Source: Rhodopirellula sp. (lineage in GTDB: Bacteria; Planctomycetota; Planctomycetia; Pirellulales; Pirellulaceae). From it: a stretch of 57,126 bases of DNA. Where the stretch lies: contig JAHELS010000013.1 in assembly GCA_024644085.1 (NCBI GenBank), positions 1 to 57,126 of the forward strand, in the 5' to 3' direction. The translations under genes and the position numbers were made by a program. Numbering within the stretch: the first letter of the stretch is position 1; each line of letters opens with the position of its first letter. Under the pieces are notes generated by a model. The model made no database searches. It was not told the DNA's origin and saw only the letters and a program-made list of their open reading frames with translations. Below, one piece after another: positions 1-13,175 of the stretch.

Positions 1-230
1 TCGGCAAACCGGACGCCGTGAACGCTTGTTGCGACCGAGTCGCGGGCTCCCGGCTTTGGATCAAACGTGTCCTGCTGGCTCGGACCACCTTCCATCCAAA
101 GCACGACGCAACGCTTGAAGGGACCCTTTGGCACCTGGTTCGCCAGGGCCCGACAGATCGGCGCGCCAAAAATCGAGCTGAATCCGGCCGCAGAACAACC
201 ACCCAGAAACGCGCGTCGGTGTGTCATCAT
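1..230 (-). CDS. DUF1501 family secreted protein, N-terminal part (cut by window edge)
   Basis: This is the first 76 codons of a DUF1501 (sulfatase-like fold) protein that runs off the left end. It starts at the ATG at 230-228, with GGAG about 8 bases upstream; a second ATG follows directly. The protein begins MMTHRRAFLGGCSAAGF, a twin-arginine-like export signal, and continues with the family signature V-L-W-M-E-G-G-P-S-Q-Q-D-T-F-D-P-K-P at about residues 44-60. DUF1501 proteins nearly always follow a DUF1549/DUF1553 gene in Planctomycetota, and here the upstream gene ends only 22 bases before this start. The biochemical function of the family is not established. The reading frame is open to the edge. 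Confidence 0.88.
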   Translation of the reverse strand, partial: MMTHRRAFLGGCSAAGFSSIFGAPICRALANQVPKGPFKRCVVLWMEGGPSQQDTFDPKPGARDSVATSVHGVRFA

Positions 231-252
231 CACATTCGCTCCAAAAAAACAA

Positions 253-1677
253 TCAATCATTCATCACAAATTCGCTGCTATGAACGAGCGCAAACAGCGT
301 GTCCTGTGAACGAGTCTCTTTCACCAGAGAGCGTTCCTTCGTCGAGGGCACGCGCGCAAGTGTCGCAAGGAACATCGAGTCGACGTCGCGCAGCGGCGCT
401 GGAATCTCGCCAGAGAGTTGACGGATTACCGTCTGCGTCGTCGCGTTCCAATCAAACGGGTCGCTGGCGGGCGTTGCTTGCCGAGCCAGACCCAACATTT
501 GCCGCGCACGCCCGGCAAGCTCGGCTGGCCGGGGAAGCGGACGATCAAGAACGATGGCGACCGATGCAATCCACTGCTCCGGCATTTGGGGTCTCGGTGT
601 TCGGGCGGCGAACAACTGCGTTTGCTGCTGACCCTCGCTCGAGACGTCATCTTGCGTGGATCGTTGGTAAGCGTCGGACAGACAAATCTCGCGGATCATT
701 GTCCGCAAATCGAAGTCGCTTGCTCGCAAGTCGCTGGCCAACGATTCGAGAAGCTCCGGCACGCTCGCTGGATTGTCACGGCTCAGCGCATCGACCGGGT
801 CGACGATTCCGCGCCCCATCAACCAATGCCAGGTCCGATTGACCATGGCGCGCGAGAACGGCTTGCTCTGCACCACCATCAAACCGAGTTCGCGTCGCCA
901 AGCTGCGGTGTGCGGTTTGCGACCGGTCAGGAAGACAGGTTTCTCGGCCCGACTATCTGCGCCGGAATCGCTAACCGCGATTCCACCTGAAACCTCGCGG
1001 AATTGCGTTGGACGATAGAAACGTTCCATCGCCACGTAATCCTGGTTGGTCCACCGGTCATGCGGATGGTCGTGACACTCGGCACAATCGAGTTGAACGG
1101 CGAGAAAGGTGCGAGACAATCTCATCACCGGGTCTTGCCGGCTGGCGACAACATAGTTGACAGGCCCATCAAGCGAACTGACACCTTCGGCAGTCAAGAG
1201 TGCGAAGCACGTCTGGTCCAGTCGCACACGATCGGCAATTTGCTCCTCGAGCCATCGCCTTAGCACCTCGTGTTCAACACCGCGTTGTTCGGCACGCCCA
1301 ACGAGCATGGTTGTCCATAGCTGCGACCAGAACCTCGGATGTTCGTCGCTGGCGAGCAACCGATCGATTGCCGCCGGCCGGTCCGGATCGGCCATGAAGG
1401 CCCGCAGTTCTTCGACCCTGGGCACCCTGCCGATCAGATCGAGCGACAAGCGACGGTAGAAGGTTGCGTCATCGCAAAGGGCGGTCGGATGCACACCGGC
1501 GCGACGGTGAGCGGTAGCGAGAATGGAATCGATCGTCTCGGCCTCGGCAGCGGCCGCAACGCACAGCCCTATCGCCATGCCCAACGATGCCAATCGGCTG
1601 ATCCATGGCAACCCGCTACCACCTCTAGGACTGCATCGACGTCGTCGCGCGATCCAGCCGACCCGCTCAGAAATCAT
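253..1677 (-). CDS. DUF1549/DUF1553 protein lacking its own N-terminal cytochrome domain
   Basis: Exported protein of 474 residues. A basic N-terminus and a hydrophobic stretch ending in AAAAEAE (about residues 25-47) form a signal or anchor. DUF1549 covers about residues 48-235 with the C-x-x-C-H motif CAECH at 198-202, followed by D-H-P-H-D-R-W. DUF1553 covers about 270-470 and includes V-N-R-T-W-H-W-L-M-G-R-G and a terminal S-S-E-F-V-M-N-D. Most members carry an N-terminal planctomycete cytochrome (PSCyt1) domain; this one does not, so it is short. I chose the ATG at 1677 over an upstream extension because it has a GAGG about 9 bases before it and overlaps the M56 gene end by 11 bases, implying coupled translation. 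Function is unknown; a redox or envelope role is inferred. Confidence 0.85.
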   Translation of the reverse strand: MISERVGWIARRRRCSPRGGSGLPWISRLASLGMAIGLCVAAAAEAETIDSILATAHRRAGVHPTALCDDATFYRRLSLDLIGRVPRVEELRAFMADPDRPAAIDRLLASDEHPRFWSQLWTTMLVGRAEQRGVEHEVLRRWLEEQIADRVRLDQTCFALLTAEGVSSLDGPVNYVVASRQDPVMRLSRTFLAVQLDCAECHDHPHDRWTNQDYVAMERFYRPTQFREVSGGIAVSDSGADSRAEKPVFLTGRKPHTAAWRRELGLMVVQSKPFSRAMVNRTWHWLMGRGIVDPVDALSRDNPASVPELLESLASDLRASDFDLRTMIREICLSDAYQRSTQDDVSSEGQQQTQLFAARTPRPQMPEQWIASVAIVLDRPLPRPAELAGRARQMLGLARQATPASDPFDWNATTQTVIRQLSGEIPAPLRDVDSMFLATLARVPSTKERSLVKETRSQDTLFALVHSSEFVMND

Positions 1678-4222
1678 CTTTGACTGCCTCGTCGCGGACC
1701 TTCTCGGACTGCTGGACCAGTTGGCGGACCACTTCGCGGCGGTCTTCGCGCACACGCAACTGATTCGAATCCGTTTGTACGAGCAGGTCATCGCGCAACA
1801 ATGTGATCGGATCGGGACGATGCCGCTCGGCGAATCGGCGAACTTCGTCCAACATCGCGTAGCGGCCCGCCTCGCCGATCCGCGCGACAAATTCCTGGTC
1901 TGCAAAGTCGGTCATCATTTGGTCGATGTCACTGGTATACCTGCGGATCTTTCGGCAAATCTGCAACAACTCGCGCGATTTCGCAGCAAGTTCTTGTTCT
2001 CGCTCGGTGGCAATCGACAATTGGTCCCCGGATTCAGTCAGCACTTCGCTCAACATGGCGCGCAACTCCTCGCCCGGATCGGCTTCCGCGTAAGGCAGCT
2101 CGGCGGCCAACAGGACTGCGGCCGGTTCCCGTCGCATCTGGGTCGCAAGCCGCGCCGTCAACGAGTCATCGGTGTCGAGCGTATCGGAGATCTCGGCGAG
2201 TCTCTCACGAACGCGCGGCAGGATTCCGGCGGCACGATCAACGCGGGCATAAATCTCCCGCATCTTCTCCCATGATTTCTCATTCGCCATCTGCAATCCC
2301 TCCGCGGTGTCGACCGATGCCTCCTCGAAGTGACGGTGAAGCTGCTCGACTCCCCGGGCCGCGTGATCAACGCTCTCGGCGATTTCCAATGCGGCAACCG
2401 TTGCAATCAGCGGATTGTTGAGGTAGCGAACGAATTGCTGGTGAGCTTCATCGTGTGTGGAATACTCCGCCGCCAACAGCGGAAGTTCGCGTTTCAATTT
2501 TTCAGCGATTTCATCTGCCAACTCGAATCGCTCGATCTGCTTGGCTGCCTCCTCACGCCGCGATCCGACAACAACGAACGTACCGTCACCCTGATCGACG
2601 AGAATTTGACCGAGCGCTTTGGCCAGGTACCTCGAAATCACATCACCCCCGTCCATTTCGTTCATCAGCACGGCGACGGGTGCTTGAGGGTCCTCCAGCA
2701 AACGTTTGAACAGACCTCCGGCCTCGGTCGACGTGTCCAGCCTTGTGGCAATGTCGTCGGTCACTCGACGAATGTTCTCGATGGATCGTGCGACGCGCTG
2801 CGATCGACTTTCCCAACGTTGCATGGCATCGGCCGATTCGGATCGAATGACCAGCTTGCCATCGTCACCTCGCACAAAGTGATGGTCGACGAAACGCGGG
2901 ATAGCCTCGTTCCGCGCCTCATCGCGGGATTGGGAACTCAATGCATTGAGGTATCCGGCTACCGCGATCCTTCCGGCATTGCCATCCAGGAGTCCATGGA
3001 ATCGTTGCGTCGTCGGATCAGTCCGATCAAGACGCGACGCGATTTCGGAGATGCCGCCGGCTACCTCCTCACTCATCACGCGCATGCGCGGTGCATCAGC
3101 ATCAGGTTCACTGTTTTCCTGGGCCGTGGTCAGCCGGAACTGGAAAAAGGACGCGATGACCAGAAGCACAGCCAGTGCAGCCAATACGAATCGTTTCATC
3201 GAAGAGTCTCCCGTGGAGCGTGGCTTCAAAAGCCTGGAAATCCGAACGTTCAATGGCGGCGCAGCCATCGTTTGAAAACCAAGCCCACGATGGTGCTCGG
3301 TACGAGCCTCGCGCTCGCTTCGCCAATCAACCAGATCGAGCAGCGCGGACGCAAATCCCGCAGCGGCTCGTTTGCCATCGTTCGCAACCCGTTGGTCACA
3401 CGCGCACTCGGCTGCCGTTTCGTATTGCCGCAGCGCCCACCACGCGATGGGATTGAACCAGTGCATCGTTGCGATCATCCGGGCAATCAATTGACGCCAC
3501 ACATCAGCGCGTTGCAGATGGGCCAACTCATGCAACATCACTCCTCGACGCTGCATCGGTGTCAATCGAATCCAGTAATCTTCCGGGACGACCATCGAAT
3601 AGCCTCTTGCCCGGCGTATCATCAACGGTCCGACGGAATCCGAAATCAGCATGTCACAACGGACGCGACGATCCAACCATCGAGATCGGCGTCGCAACCG
3701 GTTCCACTGGTGTTGCCAATCGTCCGGAGCGGGCGAGAGCTTTCGTGTCACGCGCAGCACGCGGCAATATCGCAACAATCCAATGACAACAAGCATGATG
3801 GCCACACCGACCCAAATCGCGATCAGCCATCGGCCCCAGTGATAGTGCGTCGCAATTCGCTGCGCCGCCTCTGGAGATGCAGCCGCGAGTCCGTTCACAA
3901 TCTCCGGCGCCGCTTCGTTCGATTGAGCATCCGGAAGCAACCATGCTCTCGCGGAATGGTCGAAATCAATTCCCAAGTCGGGAACCGGCGCAGGCGAGGC
4001 CTCAATCCAACCGAGATGAACCGGCGAACGAACGATCATCAACCCCTGCAGCAATATCGCGGCCATCAGCCAGGATCGAAGACGCCACGATTCAAGAGAC
4101 ACGTTCCGCAGCACCAGGAAAATCAGTGCACCGACCGCAGCCATCATCAACGAAGCGATGAAGAATGAATGCAACGGAATTCCAAACGCCGCAGCGACAG
4201 GATCAAAACTCGCCATCATCAT
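1667..4222 (-). CDS. M56 (BlaR1-like) membrane metalloprotease with five-repeat extracytoplasmic region
   Basis: Predicted membrane zinc protease of 851 residues that would inactivate the adjacent BlaI-type repressor. Membrane segments lie at about 19-39, 50-65, 131-152 and 344-362. The zinc site H-E-L-A-H is at 231-235, followed by N-P-I-A-W-W and the downstream E-C-A-C-D at 272-276, as in M56 peptidases. After the last membrane segment there is no penicillin-binding sensor domain. Instead residues 391-840 read as five helical repeats (starts near 391, 491, 572, 675 and 763), each with L/F-x-x-x-L-x-x-x-P-x-x-V-A-x-L-x-x-E followed by a D/G-x-L-x-V turn. The start ATG overlaps the blaI stop, and the run GGGGAG inside the end of blaI serves as ribosome binding site. 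The protease call is firm; the sensed signal is unknown. Confidence 0.88.
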   Translation of the reverse strand: MMMASFDPVAAAFGIPLHSFFIASLMMAAVGALIFLVLRNVSLESWRLRSWLMAAILLQGLMIVRSPVHLGWIEASPAPVPDLGIDFDHSARAWLLPDAQSNEAAPEIVNGLAAASPEAAQRIATHYHWGRWLIAIWVGVAIMLVVIGLLRYCRVLRVTRKLSPAPDDWQHQWNRLRRRSRWLDRRVRCDMLISDSVGPLMIRRARGYSMVVPEDYWIRLTPMQRRGVMLHELAHLQRADVWRQLIARMIATMHWFNPIAWWALRQYETAAECACDQRVANDGKRAAAGFASALLDLVDWRSEREARTEHHRGLGFQTMAAPPLNVRISRLLKPRSTGDSSMKRFVLAALAVLLVIASFFQFRLTTAQENSEPDADAPRMRVMSEEVAGGISEIASRLDRTDPTTQRFHGLLDGNAGRIAVAGYLNALSSQSRDEARNEAIPRFVDHHFVRGDDGKLVIRSESADAMQRWESRSQRVARSIENIRRVTDDIATRLDTSTEAGGLFKRLLEDPQAPVAVLMNEMDGGDVISRYLAKALGQILVDQGDGTFVVVGSRREEAAKQIERFELADEIAEKLKRELPLLAAEYSTHDEAHQQFVRYLNNPLIATVAALEIAESVDHAARGVEQLHRHFEEASVDTAEGLQMANEKSWEKMREIYARVDRAAGILPRVRERLAEISDTLDTDDSLTARLATQMRREPAAVLLAAELPYAEADPGEELRAMLSEVLTESGDQLSIATEREQELAAKSRELLQICRKIRRYTSDIDQMMTDFADQEFVARIGEAGRYAMLDEVRRFAERHRPDPITLLRDDLLVQTDSNQLRVREDRREVVRQLVQQSEKVRDEAVKDDF

Positions 4223-4638
4223 GAGCTCTCCCCGTGATTGGCCGACGTCGAATCGCGCAGATCCCGCTCAGCCTGACGCACCAGACGCTTCAATTCCGCG
4301 AGCTCCTCGCGATCGATCTTGCCGTCACGCACCAAGTGGGCAACGAGCGGCACGACACTGCCGTCGGACAACCGCTTCAAGACATCTTCGAGATGCCCCG
4401 CCTGCACTTGCTCCCGAGCAACGAGGGGAGAATAGACGGCCGGTCGATCGGACGACCGAGCGGCAAGTCCCTTGTCAACCAAACGGTTGAGCCGCGTTTG
4501 CATGGTCGTATAGCCGATCCGTTCGGCCCCAAACGCCTCGTGGGCCTCGGCCAGTGTCAAGTTTCGATGCCGCCAAAGCAGGTCCATCAGATCGACCTCG
4601 CCGCTGGTCAACCGGACCGCTCGATTACGCTTTCCCAT
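4219..4638 (-). CDS. BlaI/MecI/CopY family transcriptional repressor
   Basis: Winged-helix repressor of 139 residues, the usual length of the family. The DNA-binding domain covers about residues 10-75, with L-T-S-G-E-V-D-L-M-D-L-L-W near the start and the recognition region Y-T-T-M-Q-T-R-L-N-R-L-V-D-K-G-L. The C-terminal part (about 80-130) is the helical dimerisation and cleavage region. The start has AAGGGA about 8 bases upstream. Two tandem dyads lie just upstream of the start, suggesting autoregulation of the whole operon. By family precedent, cleavage by the neighbouring M56 protease would release repression. Confidence 0.93.
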   Translation of the reverse strand: MGKRNRAVRLTSGEVDLMDLLWRHRNLTLAEAHEAFGAERIGYTTMQTRLNRLVDKGLAARSSDRPAVYSPLVAREQVQAGHLEDVLKRLSDGSVVPLVAHLVRDGKIDREELAELKRLVRQAERDLRDSTSANHGESS

Positions 4639-4654: not shown

Positions 4655-4674
4655 AATACTACGTCTGTCGTATT
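4655..4674. promoter_or_regulatory. BlaI-type operator 1 (dyad)
   Basis: AATACTACGTCTGTCGTATT is an imperfect dyad whose core is TACTA-6-TCGTA (4657-4672). It lies 17 bases upstream of the blaI start. The half-site and 6-base spacing match the TAC...GTA form of BlaI/MecI family operators. The centre is near 4664.5. Confidence 0.68.
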
Positions 4675-4676
4675 TA

Positions 4677-4696
4677 TTTACGAAACAGGTCGTAAA
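4677..4696. promoter_or_regulatory. BlaI-type operator 2 (perfect 7-bp dyad)
   Basis: A perfect inverted repeat TTTACGA-6-TCGTAAA with the same TACGA-6-TCGTA core as operator 1. Its centre is near 4686.5, 22 bases (about two helical turns) from that of operator 1, so two repressor dimers could bind the same face of the DNA. No other copy of this dyad was noticed in the window. Confidence 0.72.
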
Positions 4697-4820
4697 GTCA
4701 ATGGGCAGAGGAAAATTGTCGGAAAAAAACTGGGGGCCACCGCCAGGAATCGCTTGCGAGGAAGAAGGCCCCAGAAAGGGTCACGGTGTTGGGACAAAAC
4801 GGCCGCGCAGCGCCCGTGCC

Positions 4821-6173
4821 TCACTCCCGCAAGAAGGCCATTTTGATGTGACGCCAAACGAACAACATCACCGCCATCAATCCGAGCATCGCCACGCACA
4901 TCCACAACAACATCGGTCCCATCCACAATAGGTTCGGAGCGAGCCACCCATTGAAGATTCGATCCCAGAAAACGATGGTCAACATCGTTCCGGCGCAGAG
5001 ATACGGACCGAACGGCGTATAGGCGTCACGAGTGATGATGTACCGAACCAATACGATCGCGATCGCCGCAAACGGCGACAGAAAGAATGCGATGATCGCC
5101 GCCTGCCAACCGATGAACGCTCCGATCATTGCCATTAACGTGACATCCCCAAACCCCATCGCTTCCATGTTCAAAGCCCAAGTCGCGACCAGCCGAATCG
5201 CCCAGATCACGCCGCCGCCGACCGCGAGTCCGACGAGCGCCGTAAAGAGTCCCAGCCACGCATCGCCGCCGATGTTCCAGACCGCTGTGATCCCAATCAA
5301 ACCGGCGACCCACATCGCCGCCAACACCTTCCAGAATCCGTAGTGAAACAAACCGTTGGTGAAGTGTTTGATCGTGCGAGCAAGTCCGCGCCGACGAAGA
5401 ATCACACCACTCCACCGGCGGTCGGCCAGCGCAAAGCACCACGCAGTCCAGATCCCAATTCCCACCCACCATCCTTTCGACGTGGCCCATACTCCGGGCC
5501 GCATGAACCACGGTGAATCGAACAACGTCGGTGCGACGCTCTGCGCTGGCACCGCACCAACCGGCAGCGCCGTCGGCATGTAAATGTAATCGGACAGAAC
5601 GGCAAAGATCAGCGCGATCCACGTGCCGGGAATCGTGATCACGTCGGGAATCGTTTGCTCATCAAAATCGATAAACGTTGCCGCCACCATGAAGATGAAC
5701 AGCACCGCATGAGCAAAAAAGATCTGGGTGCCAACCGTCTCGAAAATGCCGAGGAAGGGTTGGACTCGTGCGGTGACCGGCAGCAGTCCACCGGATTGAG
5801 TTTCAAAATGGTAGAGGGCGAGTAGAGAGACCGCCGTTGCAGCTTCGATCAGCATTGGTCGGATCCAGAATCCTCGTCCGTGGATTCCTGTCTCGCGTCG
5901 CAATCCGAACCAACCGAGAATCGGAATCCGGTCCGTCCACCGCCTCGCTGGAGCCCCTTCCGGTGGCGGTCCCCAGGGCGAGATCGGGCGGGGGTTGAAA
6001 TAGGCAAACCGGTAGATCACATGGTTTGCCAGAGCCCCTCCGGCCAACCCGAACAGGGCCAGCAGAATCACGCGCAGTTCCGCTGGAATTCCCATCCAGA
6101 AGGCAATCACCGGCGACTCCAAGGGGGGTGAGGCGACAAGAAAGCCGAATGGTAACGCTCCACCGAGAATCAC
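4821..6173 (-). CDS. Prepilin peptidase, A24 aspartic protease family
   Basis: Polytopic inner-membrane protease that would cleave type IV prepilin or pseudopilin leaders. The N-terminal part holds a degenerate first A24 domain (G-A-L-A-N-H-V-I-Y-R-F-A-Y, then I-P-I-L-G-W-F). The catalytic half has F-I-D-F-D-E-Q-T-I-P-D with the first aspartate and M-G-F-G-D-V-T-L-M with the second (the GxGD motif). About eight hydrophobic segments follow one another over 450 residues, long for the family. The four zinc-binding cysteines of bifunctional PilD enzymes are absent, so the methylase part is probably inactive or lost. The start is uncertain: the GTG at 6173 has a GGGG just upstream, and an ATG at 6095 would also fit. 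No pilus gene lies next to it. Confidence 0.82.
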   Translation of the reverse strand: MILGGALPFGFLVASPPLESPVIAFWMGIPAELRVILLALFGLAGGALANHVIYRFAYFNPRPISPWGPPPEGAPARRWTDRIPILGWFGLRRETGIHGRGFWIRPMLIEAATAVSLLALYHFETQSGGLLPVTARVQPFLGIFETVGTQIFFAHAVLFIFMVAATFIDFDEQTIPDVITIPGTWIALIFAVLSDYIYMPTALPVGAVPAQSVAPTLFDSPWFMRPGVWATSKGWWVGIGIWTAWCFALADRRWSGVILRRRGLARTIKHFTNGLFHYGFWKVLAAMWVAGLIGITAVWNIGGDAWLGLFTALVGLAVGGGVIWAIRLVATWALNMEAMGFGDVTLMAMIGAFIGWQAAIIAFFLSPFAAIAIVLVRYIITRDAYTPFGPYLCAGTMLTIVFWDRIFNGWLAPNLLWMGPMLLWMCVAMLGLMAVMLFVWRHIKMAFLRE

Positions 6174-6522
6174 TATACCCCGATGCCCGCTGAGCTCGCC
6201 GGTCCGCAGGTCTCGTTTGAATCGGCGACTCGTTTGAATTGACGGATCTCTAAACCCGCATTAAGCTTGTGCTTAGGTGGCAAACCCCTGTTTTATCCCT
6301 GTTTGCCCCTCCCGCCTGCCCACTCTTGGGCTACCGCATCGGGCCGAATTTGCCGGTGCCGGATTGGCGATTTACCCACACCTTTCCTCTGGGAGATCGG
6401 CCGGGTCGATGATTCTTTTCCCGCCTCACGGGACTCGCAGTCGTGCAATCAAGTTTTCACTTGGTGTGATCATCTTCCCCGACGCCATTCCCAGTCACTT
6501 TCCTTCGTGCGAGCATTGATCC
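6174..6522. other. Intergenic region between divergent genes, no gene seen
   Basis: About 350 bases separate the divergently transcribed prepilin peptidase and the large cytochrome/DUF1553 gene. Both promoters should lie here, but I cannot point to convincing -35/-10 elements. Short open frames on the plus strand have no coding character. Confidence 0.5.
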
Positions 6523-9500
6523 GTGCAGATTGTGAACGCTGATCGAATTCTGTTGTTCTCCGCTTGTTTGTTGTTCGCATCCACAGCCATCGCGAATGAC
6601 GACCAGTCGGGCGAGAAGACTGGCGAAACCTCCGGAGTGGTTAGCTTCCAATCCGACATTGAACCGCTGCTGAGTCGGAATTGCTACGGATGTCATCAGG
6701 GAGCCAAGCAACTCGGTTCTTACATGATGACCGATTTCGACGCGCTGCTTGCCGGCGGCGAATCGGAGCAGCCTGCGATCGTCCCGGGCAAGCCAGGCGA
6801 GAGCTACCTTGTTGAATTGATCACTCCGGTCGACGGCCACGCCGAAATGCCGGCTGAACCGTTCAAAGCACTCAGTGACGCCGAGGTTGAATTGGTCCGC
6901 CGCTGGATCACCCAGGGCGCAGAGAACGATTCCCTGCAAGCGAGCGGACCCAAGTACGACGCGGAACACCCTCCCGTTTACGCCGGCGCGCCGCCGCTGC
7001 CGTCGATCGATGTTTCGCCGGGCGGTTCGCTGGTGGCAGTCGCGGGGTACCACGAGATCATCGTGCTGAACGCGGAAACAGGTGAGCGGACATCGCGTCT
7101 GGTTGGATTGAGCCCACGAATCAACACGGTTCGCTTCTCGCCCGACGGGAAACGTCTTGCGGCGGTTGGCGGCACGCCCGCAGTTCGCGGCGAATTTCAA
7201 ATCTGGGAAGTGGAATCGGGCGAACTTTTGCTGTCGCGCAGCGTGACCTACGACGCACTTTGCGGTGCAGGCTGGTCACCCGACGGCACGAAGCTTGCCT
7301 TTGGCGCATCGGATAACGTTGTGCGTGCCGTCGACACCGATACCGGCGAGCAGGTTCTTTACCAGGGAGCTCACGAAGATTGGGTCCGCGACACGGCATT
7401 CAATCACGATGGGACCCATGTGATTTCGGTTGCTCGCGACATGTCGTGCAAGCTAACCCATCTGGAGACAGAACGATTCATTGACAATATCACGTCGATC
7501 ACGCCCGGCGCACTCTCGGGTGGCCTCAGCAGCGTCGCTTCGCATCCCAACCGAAACGAGATTCTCGTAGGCGGGGCTGACGGAATTGCGAAGGTCTATC
7601 GAATCTTTCGCGAAACGGCTCGCAAGATCGGTGACGATGCAAACCTGGTCCGCAAAATGCCGGAAATGCCGGGCCGCATTTTCAGTGTTGCGATCAGCCC
7701 CGATGCATCTCGATTGGCCGCCGCATCGACCTTGGACGGCAAGAGTGAAGTACGTGTTTGGCAATACGACTTCAGCAGCGAAATGTCGGACGAAGTCAAG
7801 AAGATCGTGGCCAAACGGGTCCAGGATCGCAGCGGTGAAGAGAAACAGAAGGTCGAGCAGTACCAGAATTCAGAAGTCAAAGAATTGTTCCGGTACAGCA
7901 TCGATAACGCTGCCGCGTTCGCGATAGCGTTTGGCGGCGAGAACTCGCTTGTGGTTGCCGCGTCGGACGGAAAGATCCGCCGCCTCGACGATGAGGGTCA
8001 ATTGAGCATTGAGTTTCCGGCTGCAGAAATTGCCGCCGAAAACCAAATTGCCTCCTCACCCTTTGATGCCCGGGCATGGAACGAGATGTTGACTCGGCGG
8101 ATCGAGGATGCGGCAACCGAAACACCGCCTGCGGCCGATCGGGTTACCGAGTTGATCATCGAACCGTCGGAAATCGAACTTGCGTCGCCATATGCCTACA
8201 CCCAATTGGTCGTCACCGCCCTGCTTGATGACGGTTCGACGACCGACGTCACGCGGTTGTGTGAGATTGAAATCCCGGATTGGGCCACGATGACCCCGCG
8301 CGGACTGATCCGCGGGGCCGCCGACGGCAACGGCACCGTTTCAATCGGATACGGAAAACTAAACGAGTCCATCAAGATCAACGCGTCCGGAATCGCCGAC
8401 GATGCACATGGCGCCGTCGATTACATCCGCGATGTCGGCCCGGTGATGAGCCGGCTCGGGTGCAACGCGGGCACCTGCCACGGTGCACAAAAAGGGAAGA
8501 ACGGATTCAAGCTGTCGCTGCGCGGTTACGACGCCACGTACGATATTCGTGCACTCACCGACGACCTTGCCGCGCGCCGCATCAACCCCGCTGCTCCCGA
8601 AGATTCGCTAATGCTTCGCAAGCCTCTTGGCTTGACGCCGCACCAGGGCGGCGCGTTGATGATCGCCGGTGACCCGAACCATACGATCCTGAGACGCTGG
8701 ATCGCCGACGGCAGCAAGCTCGATCTCAACTCGCCCCGCGTGACCGGAATCGAAGTTTCGCCGGTGAACCCAATCGTCCAGAGCACCACGGCGCGTCAAC
8801 AAGTCCGTGTTGTCGCACATTATTCCGACGGCACACATCGGGACGTTACCCGCGAAGCGTTCATCGAAAGCGGCAATACCGAAGTTGCCGCCGCGGACAA
8901 ATCAGGATTGCTCGTAGCCTTGAGACGCGGCGAGGCGCCGATTCTTGCCCGCTATGAGGGCGCTTACGCCGCCACCACCTTGACCGTGATGGGCGACCGC
9001 GAAGATTACCAAACCCCCAAGGTTGAAAGCTGGAGCCGAATCGACGAGTTGGTTGCCGAGAAATGGCAGCGGGTCAAAGTCGTGCCAAGTGAACTTTGCG
9101 ATGATGCCACCTTCTTGCGCCGCGTCTATCTCGATCTGATTGGGTTGCCTCCGACGAGCGACCAGGTCCGAAATTTCCTGGCCGATCCAACGCCGACACG
9201 ATTGAAACGCGCCCGCGTGATCGACCAATTGATCGGCAGCGAAGCGTACATCGAGTTTTGGACCAACAAGTGGGCCGACCTGTTGCAGGTCAATCGCAAG
9301 TTTCTCGGTGTGGAGGGAAGCACCAAGTTCCGTGATTGGATTCGCCAGGCGGTCGCCGAAAACCGCCCCTACGACCAGTTTGCCCGCGAGATCCTGACCG
9401 CAAGTGGATCCAACAACGACAATCCGCCCGCCTCGTATTTCAAGGTGCTGCGAACACCCGAAGACACGATGGAGAACACGACCCATTTGTTCCTCGGTAT

Positions 9501-11652
9501 TCGATTCAATTGCAACAAGTGCCACGACCATCCTTTCGAGCGTTGGACCCAGAACCAGTATTACGAGATGTCCGCGTTCTTTGCGCAAATGGCGCTCGAG
9601 CATGACCCGGCATCGGGTAACCGCAAAATCGGAGGAACCGCCGTCGAGGGCGCCAAGTCGCTGTTCGAGAAGGTCGTCGATCGTAAACAGGGGGACGTGA
9701 CTCACCCGAAAACGAACGAAGTGGTACCGCCAGCCTTCCCGTTTGAGGTGACCCATGAAACCAGCGAGGGCACAAGCCGTCGCGAGCAATTGGCATCCTG
9801 GGTTACCGATGCCGACAATCCTTATTTCGCCCGCAGCTACGTCAATCGTCTTTGGGGCTACCTGCTTGGCGTCGGGCTGATCGAACCGATCGATGACATC
9901 CGGGCCGGCAACCCGGCAACCAACCCCGAATTGCTCAAGCATTTGACCGACTCGTTTGTCGATTCCGGCTTCAACATCGCCCACATCCAACGGGCAATCT
10001 GCAACAGCCGTGCGTACCAGTTGAGCGTGAACACGAATCCGCTTAACGAAGACGACACATTGAATTATTCCCACGCGCTGCCGCGCCGCTTGCCAGCCGA
10101 AGTGATTTACGATGCCGTTCACGCCGTTACCGGCGCCGCCAGTTCCATTCCGGGCATGCCCAAAGGGACCCGAGCCGCTGCGATGACCGATTCCGGCATC
10201 AAGCTTGCCGACGGCTTTCTGCAAAACCTCGGTCGGCCAGCACGTGAAAGTGCCTGCGAGTGCGAGCGGTCGTCCGAACTGCAACTCGGCCCGGTCATGG
10301 CGCTGATCAGCGGCCCGACGATCGGCACCGCCATATCAGATCCCCAAAACGCGTTGGAACGGATCGTTCAGCAGTTCGCCAGCGACGACCAACTCGCCGA
10401 AGAGATCTTCGTGCGTGCCCTGGGACGGTTGCCGAATCCAGCAGAGATCGCTGCCTTCGGACAAATGAAGGAATTGATCAAGGAAAGCCACCAAGAGCTG
10501 GTTGCCGAGTTGGAGGCAGCCGAGGCCGATTGGGTCACGCGCCGCGCCGAACTGGAAACAAGGCGTGAAAAGATGCTGGCCGAAACTGTCGAGAAAATCA
10601 CGGCGCGGACCGAGGAGATCAAACCCGAGCGTGAACGTTTGGCGAAGGAGCGTGAAGAACGAATCAAGGCTGCCGAAGCGGTGGTCGCCGATGCCAAGGC
10701 AAAGCTGGGTGAAAAAATCGAAAAGCTGGCCGCTGACCTGAAGTCGTCGCCCGAATGGTTTCCACTCACCACGTCCGTTGCAACGGCAACCAACAAGGCG
10801 GTGCTGACTCCGCAAGAGGATCGCTCGATCGTGGCCAGCGGTAACAAAGACAAGGGTGTCTACGAAATCACGGTCAACACATCGCTGAAGAACATTACCG
10901 GGTTCCGGCTCGAAGCCCTCAGCGACTCAAACCTCCCGTCGAAGGGACCGGGGCTGGCCGAGAACGGAAACTTCGTGGTCACCGAATTCGAGGTGTTTGC
11001 CGCGGCCGCCAAGACTCCCGAGCAATCGGCCAAAGTGAACATCGCCAGCGGAATCGCCGACTTTCTGCAGGGCGGTTTCGACATCAAGCAGACTTTCAAC
11101 GGCCAGACCAATAACCAACAAGGCTGGGCAGTCGCCGGCGCAACCGGTCACACCCACTGGGCAACTTTCAAACTGGCCGAGCCTATCAAGCATGAAGAGG
11201 GAACCGTGCTGACATTCAAGCTGCACCAGTTCCACAACGCCAAGGACCATACACTCGGCCGCTTCCGCATTTCGGCAACGACAGCCACGGGGGATATCCC
11301 GCTTGGACAACCCGAGTCGTTTGCAGCCACGCTGGCAACACCGAAAGAACACCGAAGCGAGGAAGGCACCAAAGAGCTGATGGAGTATCTCGCGGTAAGC
11401 GATGCTGATGTGATCAAGGCCAACGCGGCTTTGGCAGCGGCCAGGGCGGCGGTGCCGCCTGATGCAATGCTTGTCAGTCTCGAAAATCGCAAGGCTCAAC
11501 TCTCCAAACCGACTCCGGACGACCCGGCGCTGGTTCAATTGCGCCAAGACACCGCGCAGAGCACGAAACAACTTGAAAACATTCGGCTCACCGCGGCCGA
11601 AGATTTAACCTGGGCGCTGATTAACAGCCCCGCGTTCCTGTTCAACCACTAA
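6523..11652 (+). CDS. Giant secreted cytochrome/WD40/DUF1549/DUF1553 protein
   Basis: Exported protein of 1709 residues. Order: signal peptide (about 1-24, ending S-T-A-I-A); PSCyt1 cytochrome domain with C-Y-G-C-H near residue 54; a WD40-type propeller (about 145-520) with repeated S-P-D-G-x-R/K-L-A motifs; a bacterial Ig-like segment (about 545-640); a second heme-like site C-N-A-G-T-C-H at 647-653; another Ig-like segment (about 745-825); DUF1549 with C-N-K-C-H at 997-1001; and DUF1553 from about 1090. DUF1553 is interrupted: a charged coiled coil (about 1326-1406) and a discoidin-like beta domain (about 1406-1606) precede its last motif L-I-N-S-P-A-F-L-F-N-H. The GTG start at 6523 has another GTG three codons later as alternative. 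It is followed by its DUF1501 partner. A role in redox handling of polymers at the cell envelope is inferred only. Confidence 0.87.
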   Translation: MQIVNADRILLFSACLLFASTAIANDDQSGEKTGETSGVVSFQSDIEPLLSRNCYGCHQGAKQLGSYMMTDFDALLAGGESEQPAIVPGKPGESYLVELITPVDGHAEMPAEPFKALSDAEVELVRRWITQGAENDSLQASGPKYDAEHPPVYAGAPPLPSIDVSPGGSLVAVAGYHEIIVLNAETGERTSRLVGLSPRINTVRFSPDGKRLAAVGGTPAVRGEFQIWEVESGELLLSRSVTYDALCGAGWSPDGTKLAFGASDNVVRAVDTDTGEQVLYQGAHEDWVRDTAFNHDGTHVISVARDMSCKLTHLETERFIDNITSITPGALSGGLSSVASHPNRNEILVGGADGIAKVYRIFRETARKIGDDANLVRKMPEMPGRIFSVAISPDASRLAAASTLDGKSEVRVWQYDFSSEMSDEVKKIVAKRVQDRSGEEKQKVEQYQNSEVKELFRYSIDNAAAFAIAFGGENSLVVAASDGKIRRLDDEGQLSIEFPAAEIAAENQIASSPFDARAWNEMLTRRIEDAATETPPAADRVTELIIEPSEIELASPYAYTQLVVTALLDDGSTTDVTRLCEIEIPDWATMTPRGLIRGAADGNGTVSIGYGKLNESIKINASGIADDAHGAVDYIRDVGPVMSRLGCNAGTCHGAQKGKNGFKLSLRGYDATYDIRALTDDLAARRINPAAPEDSLMLRKPLGLTPHQGGALMIAGDPNHTILRRWIADGSKLDLNSPRVTGIEVSPVNPIVQSTTARQQVRVVAHYSDGTHRDVTREAFIESGNTEVAAADKSGLLVALRRGEAPILARYEGAYAATTLTVMGDREDYQTPKVESWSRIDELVAEKWQRVKVVPSELCDDATFLRRVYLDLIGLPPTSDQVRNFLADPTPTRLKRARVIDQLIGSEAYIEFWTNKWADLLQVNRKFLGVEGSTKFRDWIRQAVAENRPYDQFAREILTASGSNNDNPPASYFKVLRTPEDTMENTTHLFLGIRFNCNKCHDHPFERWTQNQYYEMSAFFAQMALEHDPASGNRKIGGTAVEGAKSLFEKVVDRKQGDVTHPKTNEVVPPAFPFEVTHETSEGTSRREQLASWVTDADNPYFARSYVNRLWGYLLGVGLIEPIDDIRAGNPATNPELLKHLTDSFVDSGFNIAHIQRAICNSRAYQLSVNTNPLNEDDTLNYSHALPRRLPAEVIYDAVHAVTGAASSIPGMPKGTRAAAMTDSGIKLADGFLQNLGRPARESACECERSSELQLGPVMALISGPTIGTAISDPQNALERIVQQFASDDQLAEEIFVRALGRLPNPAEIAAFGQMKELIKESHQELVAELEAAEADWVTRRAELETRREKMLAETVEKITARTEEIKPERERLAKEREERIKAAEAVVADAKAKLGEKIEKLAADLKSSPEWFPLTTSVATATNKAVLTPQEDRSIVASGNKDKGVYEITVNTSLKNITGFRLEALSDSNLPSKGPGLAENGNFVVTEFEVFAAAAKTPEQSAKVNIASGIADFLQGGFDIKQTFNGQTNNQQGWAVAGATGHTHWATFKLAEPIKHEEGTVLTFKLHQFHNAKDHTLGRFRISATTATGDIPLGQPESFAATLATPKEHRSEEGTKELMEYLAVSDADVIKANAALAAARAAVPPDAMLVSLENRKAQLSKPTPDDPALVQLRQDTAQSTKQLENIRLTAAEDLTWALINSPAFLFNH

Positions 11653-11693
11653 ACTGAATCATTCCCGCCAAGAACCCCATCGGAGACATTGCC

Positions 11694-13175
<1,482 letters not shown>

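Follow-up and report, generated by a model that had tools for sequence, protein, structure and literature searches.

In a 57,126-nucleotide stretch of Rhodopirellula sp. (contig JAHELS010000013.1, positions 1 to 57,126; hereafter the window), a predicted M56-family sensor-protease carries after its last membrane helix a domain of five homologous units, here named REP (residues ~391-851), at the place where BlaR1 and MecR1 have a penicillin-binding domain. The reading that we favour, at a probability of roughly 0.53, is that the gene belongs to a self-regulating operon of the BlaI/BlaR1 type, new in its outer domain and in its output, in which REP would be the partner of the DUF1549 and DUF1501 proteins encoded downstream, and in which an internal translation start would yield free REP from the same gene. 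Comparison of sequences across planctomycete genomes is the basis for this reading. The genes and sites of the operon in the window are as follows.

4657-4694, no strand: two predicted BlaI-type operators, TACTACGTCTGTCGTA at 4657-4672 and TACGAAACAGGTCGTA at 4679-4694, 22 bp apart (pattern match).
4219-4638, minus strand: BlaI/MecI-type repressor, 139 amino acids (Penicillinase_R, PF03965, E 2.9e-23); its stop overlaps the start of the M56 gene.
1667-4222, minus strand: M56 (BlaR1-type) sensor-protease with the five-unit REP domain, 851 amino acids (open reading frame and Pfam).
3299-4156, minus strand: Peptidase M56 region, residues 23-308, with the zinc site H231-E-x-x-H235 and E272-x-x-x-D276 (Pfam and motifs).
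253-1677, minus strand: short DUF1549/DUF1553 (PSCyt2/PSD1) protein (Pfam), whose likely start, ATG at 1677, would overlap the REP stop by 11 nt.
3-260, minus strand: N-terminal part of a DUF1501 protein, truncated at the contig end (PF07394, E 1.1e-7, 31.9 bits against a cut-off of 27, for an 86-residue fragment).

Residues 23-308 of the sensor-protease match the Pfam M56 family (PF05569) at an E-value of 1.5e-22 and 80.6 bits, against a curated cut-off of 31, and both zinc-site motifs are present as H231ELAH (HEXXH) and E272CACD (EXXXD), which bears out the M56 protease proposed in an earlier, sequence-only reading of this DNA. The HExxH and ExxxD motifs are both intact in 20/20 M56-REP proteins checked (a count without L158-L161). 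The NCBIfam model blaR1_generic scores 52.7 bits on the window protein, against a cut-off of 400. No transpeptidase or beta-lactamase Pfam family matched the window protein at E-values up to 1, and none was found among 25 of the 29 weak Pfam families listed for 23 REP members. By these matches the protein is a member of the M56 peptidase family without a penicillin-binding domain.

The gluzincin motifs and the H-to-E spacing of 41 residues are shared with the BlaR1/MecR1-BlaI/MecI systems of Staphylococcus aureus and Bacillus licheniformis (for BlaR1, passages of PMC9834060 give H201EXXH and E242XXXD), as are the outer domain after the last membrane helix, the adjoining BlaI-type repressor gene and, by prediction here, palindromic operators at the operon promoter. 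Unlike those systems, the M56-REP protein has five REP units and no penicillin-binding or class-D-like domain, its operon holds DUF1549/DUF1553 and DUF1501 genes and not a beta-lactamase or PBP2a gene, a probable internal start precedes its outer domain, and REP occurs without the protease in three genomes. The M56-REP frame of G158 (L064:7845-9758, plus strand) opens 400 nt after BlaI, within the protease-coding part, and so does not take in the first membrane helices. L016/L075 (G070) and L077/L073 (G046) each resemble one M56-REP gene split across two contig ends.

The outer region had been read from the sequence as a five-fold repeat over 1667-3055, which corresponds to residues 390-851. 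Profile comparisons and an AlphaFold2 model place the units as follows.

2732-3052, minus strand: REP unit 1, residues 391-497.
2465-2755, minus strand: REP unit 2, residues 490-586.
2168-2485, minus strand: REP unit 3, residues 580-685.
1892-2191, minus strand: REP unit 4, residues 678-777.
1670-1921, minus strand: REP unit 5, residues 768-851.

The five homologous units are real. The best off-diagonal self-alignment of residues 376-851 scored 78, compared with a mean of 41.3 (standard deviation 6.3, maximum 64) in 200 shuffles, and when unit profiles built from an alignment of 23 sequences (A1) were compared with one another, 10/10 pairs aligned across most of the unit with probabilities of 85.5-97.0 and scores of 33-57. 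All ten exceeded every one of 70 controls, the best of 20 reversed profiles scoring 17.8 and the best of 50 column-shuffled profiles 17.6 (top 8 listed), and these controls rule out the repeats as a chance product of helical composition. The AlphaFold2 model of REP, made from a 7-sequence alignment, has a mean pLDDT (predicted local distance difference test) of 86.1 and a pTM (predicted template modelling score) of 0.62, and in it short helices, a beta-hairpin and a helix of ~32 residues recur in register with the units. The five-fold repeat that had been proposed thus holds; its end at residue 840 has to be moved, as the repeats reach residue 851 with a shorter unit 5, and the DG-x-L-x-V-like turn ascribed to every unit is clear in four and degenerate in unit 3 (D-T-A-E-G-L-Q-M). 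A single transpeptidase-like domain is ruled out by the lack of such a Pfam match together with the five clear repeats.

REP gave no credible match to a described family or fold in any of the searches made. Pfam had none at the curated cut-off on residues 376-851 of the window protein, and on the 23 REP members it gave weak, scattered matches (best E 0.00076, no family in more than three members) and, of the 29 weak families, the 25 that are listed include no repeat family such as HEAT or TPR. NCBIfam had no match in the window REP, and across 19 members it gave two that were weak and isolated; the REP profile, searched against solved structures, gave none under E 0.05; and Foldseek against the PDB returned 0 matches at E<=0.001 for the whole REP and for a two-unit model, which was weaker (pLDDT 72.1). 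VIA-align gave a best Z of 3.7, which excludes no fold, and the negatives from Foldseek, VIA-align, Pfam, NCBIfam and structure profiles are no proof of a new fold. On these searches REP is an undescribed repeat domain replacing the penicillin-binding sensor. That part of the earlier inference stands, Pfam naming REP in 0/23 members; its other part, that the domain senses a ligand, stays a conjecture, and the evidence below points to a wider role. No description of the REP domain, the operon or the internal start was found in the open-licence literature searched, mostly as listings and passages.

The gene order around REP was compared across relatives, in counts that leave out three doubtful weak matches (G189, L079; G556, L106; G965, L163) and one locus cut by a contig end (G554, L105). 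BlaI lies upstream of M56-REP in 23/23 loci with sequence there, with a 4-nt overlap in many. The next gene on the same strand after REP is a short DUF1549/DUF1553 gene in 29/29 M56-fused or standalone loci with downstream sequence, its open frame being 437-518 codons where complete, and DUF1501 follows DUF1549 in 25/25 loci with enough sequence. In the window the DUF1549/DUF1553 product, taken from 1662 on, matches PF07583 (E 7.4e-31, 108.2 bits) and PF07587 (E 1.1e-25, 90.9 bits), both over the cut-off, and the DUF1501 fragment is 60% identical to the DUF1501 protein of L055 over residues 15-86. No beta-lactamase or PBP2a gene is present in the operon. BlaI-[M56-REP]-DUF1549/1553-DUF1501 is, to judge from this gene order, a conserved operon.

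Both downstream genes are members of the PSCyt2/PSD1 (DUF1549/DUF1553) and DUF1501 families, and the operon differs from these families at large in that its short DUF1549/DUF1553 type is tied to REP and to BlaI/M56. Within the genus, a DUF1549 partner with at least 61% identity occurs in 2/22 genomes, both of them the REP genomes, and all others are at most 38% identical among the matches listed (E<=1e-30). Other short DUF1549 genes of the genus (L140-L143) have no REP, BlaI or M56 match in the flanking stretches fetched. Rhodopirellula baltica has 41 copies each of DUF1549 and DUF1553, and for one of its PSC2/PSD1 genes an extracytoplasmic function (ECF) sigma factor was proposed as regulator, according to passages of PMC2754498; the passages on DUF1501 in PMC5587647 and PMC4982196 add no function. 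Elsewhere in the window, a 1709-residue protein (6523-13175, plus strand) has a DUF1549-like region (9037-9594, 37% identical to the operon DUF1549) followed by DUF1501, and an A24-type prepilin peptidase gene (4821-6173, assigned by its L055 relative) lies divergent to this DUF1549-like/DUF1501 pair.

The predicted operator is a 16-bp palindrome at the promoter before blaI, usually present twice, 21-22 bp apart, in a layout common to the relatives. The pair in the window lies directly downstream of TTGACT (4696-4701, minus strand), and these are the 2 matches in 57 kb, compared with 0.07 expected. Over 383 kb from 27 sources, 28 matches with at most one mismatch were found, all of them just 5′ of blaI. 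They came from 16 sources, 12 of which had two each, and base-shuffling of the 383 kb gave 1 match in each of three shuffles. Loci L159, L160 and L161 have one, one and two matches. At up to one mismatch none was found in L061 (truncated), L068, L070 and L158, nor was there an operator match in the standalone-REP loci L055, L071 and L162. Across the whole genome to which the window belongs, the exact operator matches at 4657-4672 only, and with at most one mismatch there are 11 operator-like places, below the 69 of a reversed-pattern control. BlaI probably controls its own operon alone, because the operators sit only before blaI in the scanned loci and the genome has one exact match. A weak M56-like match elsewhere in that genome (G000:C277, 23.7 bits, under the cut-off) with a one-mismatch operator-like site nearby was judged to be chance.

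A candidate second start lies within the M56-REP gene.

3197-3212, minus strand: putative internal start ahead of the last membrane helix, made up of a ribosome-binding site, GGGAGA (3207-3212), and the codon of M342 (3197-3199) (Shine-Dalgarno (SD) scan).

The site was analysed in 19 M56-REP genes, after near-duplicates (L058, L060, L062, L063, L072) were dropped, and in a comparison set of 24 other planctomycete M56 loci (L005-L030 less the REP genes L013 and L016) plus 40 from the top of a longer list, of which 60 genes were usable; L001-L004 are REP genes and stand outside this set. A Met, mostly with K or R next, precedes the last membrane helix in 15/19 M56-REP proteins and in 32/60 of the other M56 genes. 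With the last Met before the helix as reference, the pairing energy with the anti-SD sequence was -92.8 in the 15 M56-REP genes, compared with a synonymous-codon null of -68.4 (standard deviation 7.2), and -179.7 in the 32 other genes, compared with -120.8 (standard deviation 12.2). As 0/500 recodings reached the observed energy in either set, the pairing strength before the Met is not explained by codon choice. The excess is limited to a narrow range, about 2-9 nt 5′ of the ATG, with a peak at 5-6 nt. An SD core is present in 10/15 M56-REP genes (null mean 4.9, maximum 10) and 13/32 other M56 genes (null mean 6.0, maximum 12), pooled 23/47 compared with 70/1058 at other internal Mets. Among 241 non-M56 proteins there were 29 sites with a Met at an internal membrane-like segment, and the core was found at 0/29 of them. 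Pairing in the window gene is about as strong at the internal site (-7.1) as at the primary start (-7.2). The frame of the standalone REP gene L055 starts at the position of the internal Met, and that of L162 probably starts at the corresponding Met, though it is open further upstream. Genes with such a site may in this way yield a receptor-protease and, in addition, the exported domain as a free protein.

An SD-like element directly before a membrane helix could also be a translational pause that aids membrane insertion, with no internal start. SD-like pausing has been proposed for membrane proteins and counts for this explanation, as does the slight SD excess found when the whole stretch near the last helix was scanned in genes that have the Met (mean z -0.14 for REP genes and -0.46 for other M56 genes). 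M56 genes without the Met show no such excess (mean z +1.35 in 4 REP genes and +0.33 in 28 others), the excess is aligned on the Met at the narrow spacing given above, and the internal helices of the non-M56 proteins have no SD. The pause is disfavoured by this dependence on the Met, the spacing and the non-M56 controls, and we consider it improbable.

Several observations weigh against the favoured reading, most of them against its internal start. The SD-core count of 10/15 in REP genes was equalled by the best of the 500 recodings; the SD of the window gene taken alone is not significant (P 0.128); 4/19 M56-REP genes are without the Met, and L056, L057, L059 and L068 have it with a weak SD (-2.9 to -4.0); L005, one of the other M56 genes, has no SD-like site; and the scan of the whole stretch near the last helix, cited above, gave little excess in genes with the Met. 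The tested genes are related, so that the shuffles overstate their independence. With respect to the operon, DUF1549 paralogues are present in 22/22 genus genomes, 20 of these without REP, and in six loci of genus g37 there are 100-644 nt before DUF1549, room for a separate promoter.

Among single genes, the Met-less L024 and L197 have a GTG or TTG start at this place with an SD, and eight other M56 genes (L006, L007, L010, L011, L014, L015, L167, L174) have GGAGG a few bases 5′ of an in-frame ATG ahead of the last helix, in differing amino-acid contexts of EDSxMK-like and RR-x-(D/E)-M-I types.

The C-terminal end of REP is also conserved.

1670-1678, minus strand: conserved C-terminal tail D-D-F, residues 849-851 (tail comparison across operon-type proteins).

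The exact C-terminal D-F is found in 28/29 operon-type proteins with a complete end, 17 of these having D-D-F; in the exception, L102, a further 16 residues come after DDF. Among the 24 genes read, the tail is written with either GAT or GAC and either TTT or TTC, and each of the three stop codons is used. As this variation extends to loci whose next gene is distant, the tail is conserved as protein, and its origin as a by-product of overlap with the next start codon was rejected, the tail being kept with the next gene 42-644 nt off. The tail may dock REP to DUF1549 or DUF1501.

At E<=0.001 REP was found in 22/241 genomes of the family (one of these, G189, is judged spurious), 8/396 of the order, 11/397 of the class (G965 doubtful) and 7/392 of the phylum (G556 doubtful), in draws that overlap and contain the window's own genome; within the genus it is sparse (2/22 genomes). 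In G016 (L055), G138 (L071) and G1001 (L162) REP stands without an adjoining BlaI, M56 or operator. These standalone forms begin with a segment that by eye resembles a signal peptide, have an intact frame and tail, and are followed by DUF1549 and DUF1501. In a midpoint-rooted tree of 24 rows, which leaves out L072, L073 and L078 (fragments) and the later loci L158-L162, L055 is placed next to the window protein (support 100/99) and L071 next to L069 (support 91/89, below the tool's star), both within the M56 forms, and at least two losses of the protease would be the simplest reading of this tree. The branch of L055 is three times longer than that of the window protein (0.80 compared with 0.26), which suggests changed constraint.

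In three loci from other planctomycete classes (L103, L104, L107) a signal-like start and REP are followed by a hydrolase resembling glycoside hydrolase family 39 (GH39; PF01229, E 3.7e-18, 4.5e-13 and 2.9e-13, respectively). These fusions form a separate clade (100/98) with long branches, the -DF tail is found in 0/3 of them, and no same-strand DUF1549 gene lies within 4 kb in the available stretch. Complete proteins of all three kinds (M56-fused, standalone and GH39-fused) span the whole five-unit profile, L104 and L107 with some deletions. Because REP occurs without the protease, fused to GH39 and, in 29/29 loci, with DUF1549/1553 next to it, it appears to be an exported protein that functions in its own right and that also serves as the outer part of the receptor.

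REP might on the other hand be a plain ligand-sensing domain, for instance for polysaccharide, that switches on DUF1549 and DUF1501, the free forms being degenerate leftovers and the internal SD incidental. The architecture does resemble BlaR1, the GH39-like fusions would suit a carbohydrate-binding part, and in Verrucomicrobia, according to a section of PMC5615132, carbohydrate-binding modules occur in some PSCyt genes, which often lie next to sulfatases, the density of PSCyt genes being inverse to that of glycoside hydrolases. Leftovers are not what is seen in the three genomes that keep standalone REP without protease or repressor, since frame, tail and partners are intact there, nor would an incidental SD peak at start-codon spacing and be lacking at the internal helices of non-M56 proteins. 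A pure sensor is therefore unlikely in our view, and the link between REP and carbohydrate that the GH39 fusions and the Verrucomicrobia report suggest is circumstantial.

A structural scaffold or spacer that distances the receptor, with no binding role, would agree with repeated units with long helices, the modest pTM of 0.62 and an identity among relatives that falls to about 20%. Against such a role stand the five-unit profile kept across the differently fused and free forms, the conservation of the tail at the exact end and the persistence of standalone forms, and we regard it as very improbable.

Under the favoured reading of a self-regulating operon whose outer domain is also released, BlaI would repress the REP operon until tethered REP meets a cue, which might be its partners or the material that they act on, possibly polysaccharide. 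The M56 protease would then be switched on and cut BlaI, and the whole operon would be expressed. That this protease cuts BlaI is inferred by analogy with BlaR1, for which such action on BlaI is described in passages of PMC9834060 and PMC7593790. REP would be a physical partner of the exported DUF1549 and DUF1501 proteins, probably docking via its C-terminal -DF tail. From the internal SD and ATG before the last membrane helix, which resembles a signal peptide, a free exported REP would be made from the same gene and join DUF1549 and DUF1501, so that the receptor would read out its own effector. Tethered and free REP, DUF1549/1553 and DUF1501 would thus act together outside the cytoplasm.

Other planctomycete M56 proteins have the same protease half and a similar start of the last membrane helix, and differ in their outer domains, which are unrelated in all eight that were given to Pfam. 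These nine loci (L005-L007, L009-L012, L014, L015) have a BlaI neighbour in 9/9 and an SD-like site in 8/9 cases, and no REP match was found at E<0.1 in 9/9 of the proteins. Pfam assigns the outer domains of eight as three Poly_export (Wza-type; L009, L010 and L015), two HEAT, one weak OEP (under the cut-off) and two unnamed. An alginate-export-type gene lies near L010 (L205, 6529-8133) and a sulfatase gene adjoins L015 (L204, 9758-11248). Downstream of an M56-Poly_export gene (5613-7568) on L206 is a separate gene (7700-9112, plus strand) whose product is similar, over its first ~45 residues, to the adjacent M56 protein in its linker and last membrane helix (37% over 60, E 1e-4), which would fit a 3′ half of an M56 gene persisting as a free exported protein.

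Because export proteins, such as the Poly_export outer domains, are effectors and not classical sensors, it can tentatively be suggested, at somewhat less than even odds, that many planctomycete BlaR1-type genes are two genes in one. The outer domain (REP, a Wza-type export domain or a HEAT domain) would be the exported effector that the receptor regulates, and it would also be made in free form from the same mRNA, through a conserved internal ribosome-binding site and in-frame start codon with a last membrane helix that resembles a signal peptide. If so, the cell would monitor an effector by holding one copy of it on a protease. The analysis connects DUF1549/DUF1553 and DUF1501, planctomycete families of unknown function, with an undescribed exported domain of five units, and the dedicated repressor, operators and receptor offer a way to search for the inducing signal. 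Should the internal start prove real, BlaR1-type genes in this phylum would have to be read as single genes that give both a membrane receptor and a free effector.

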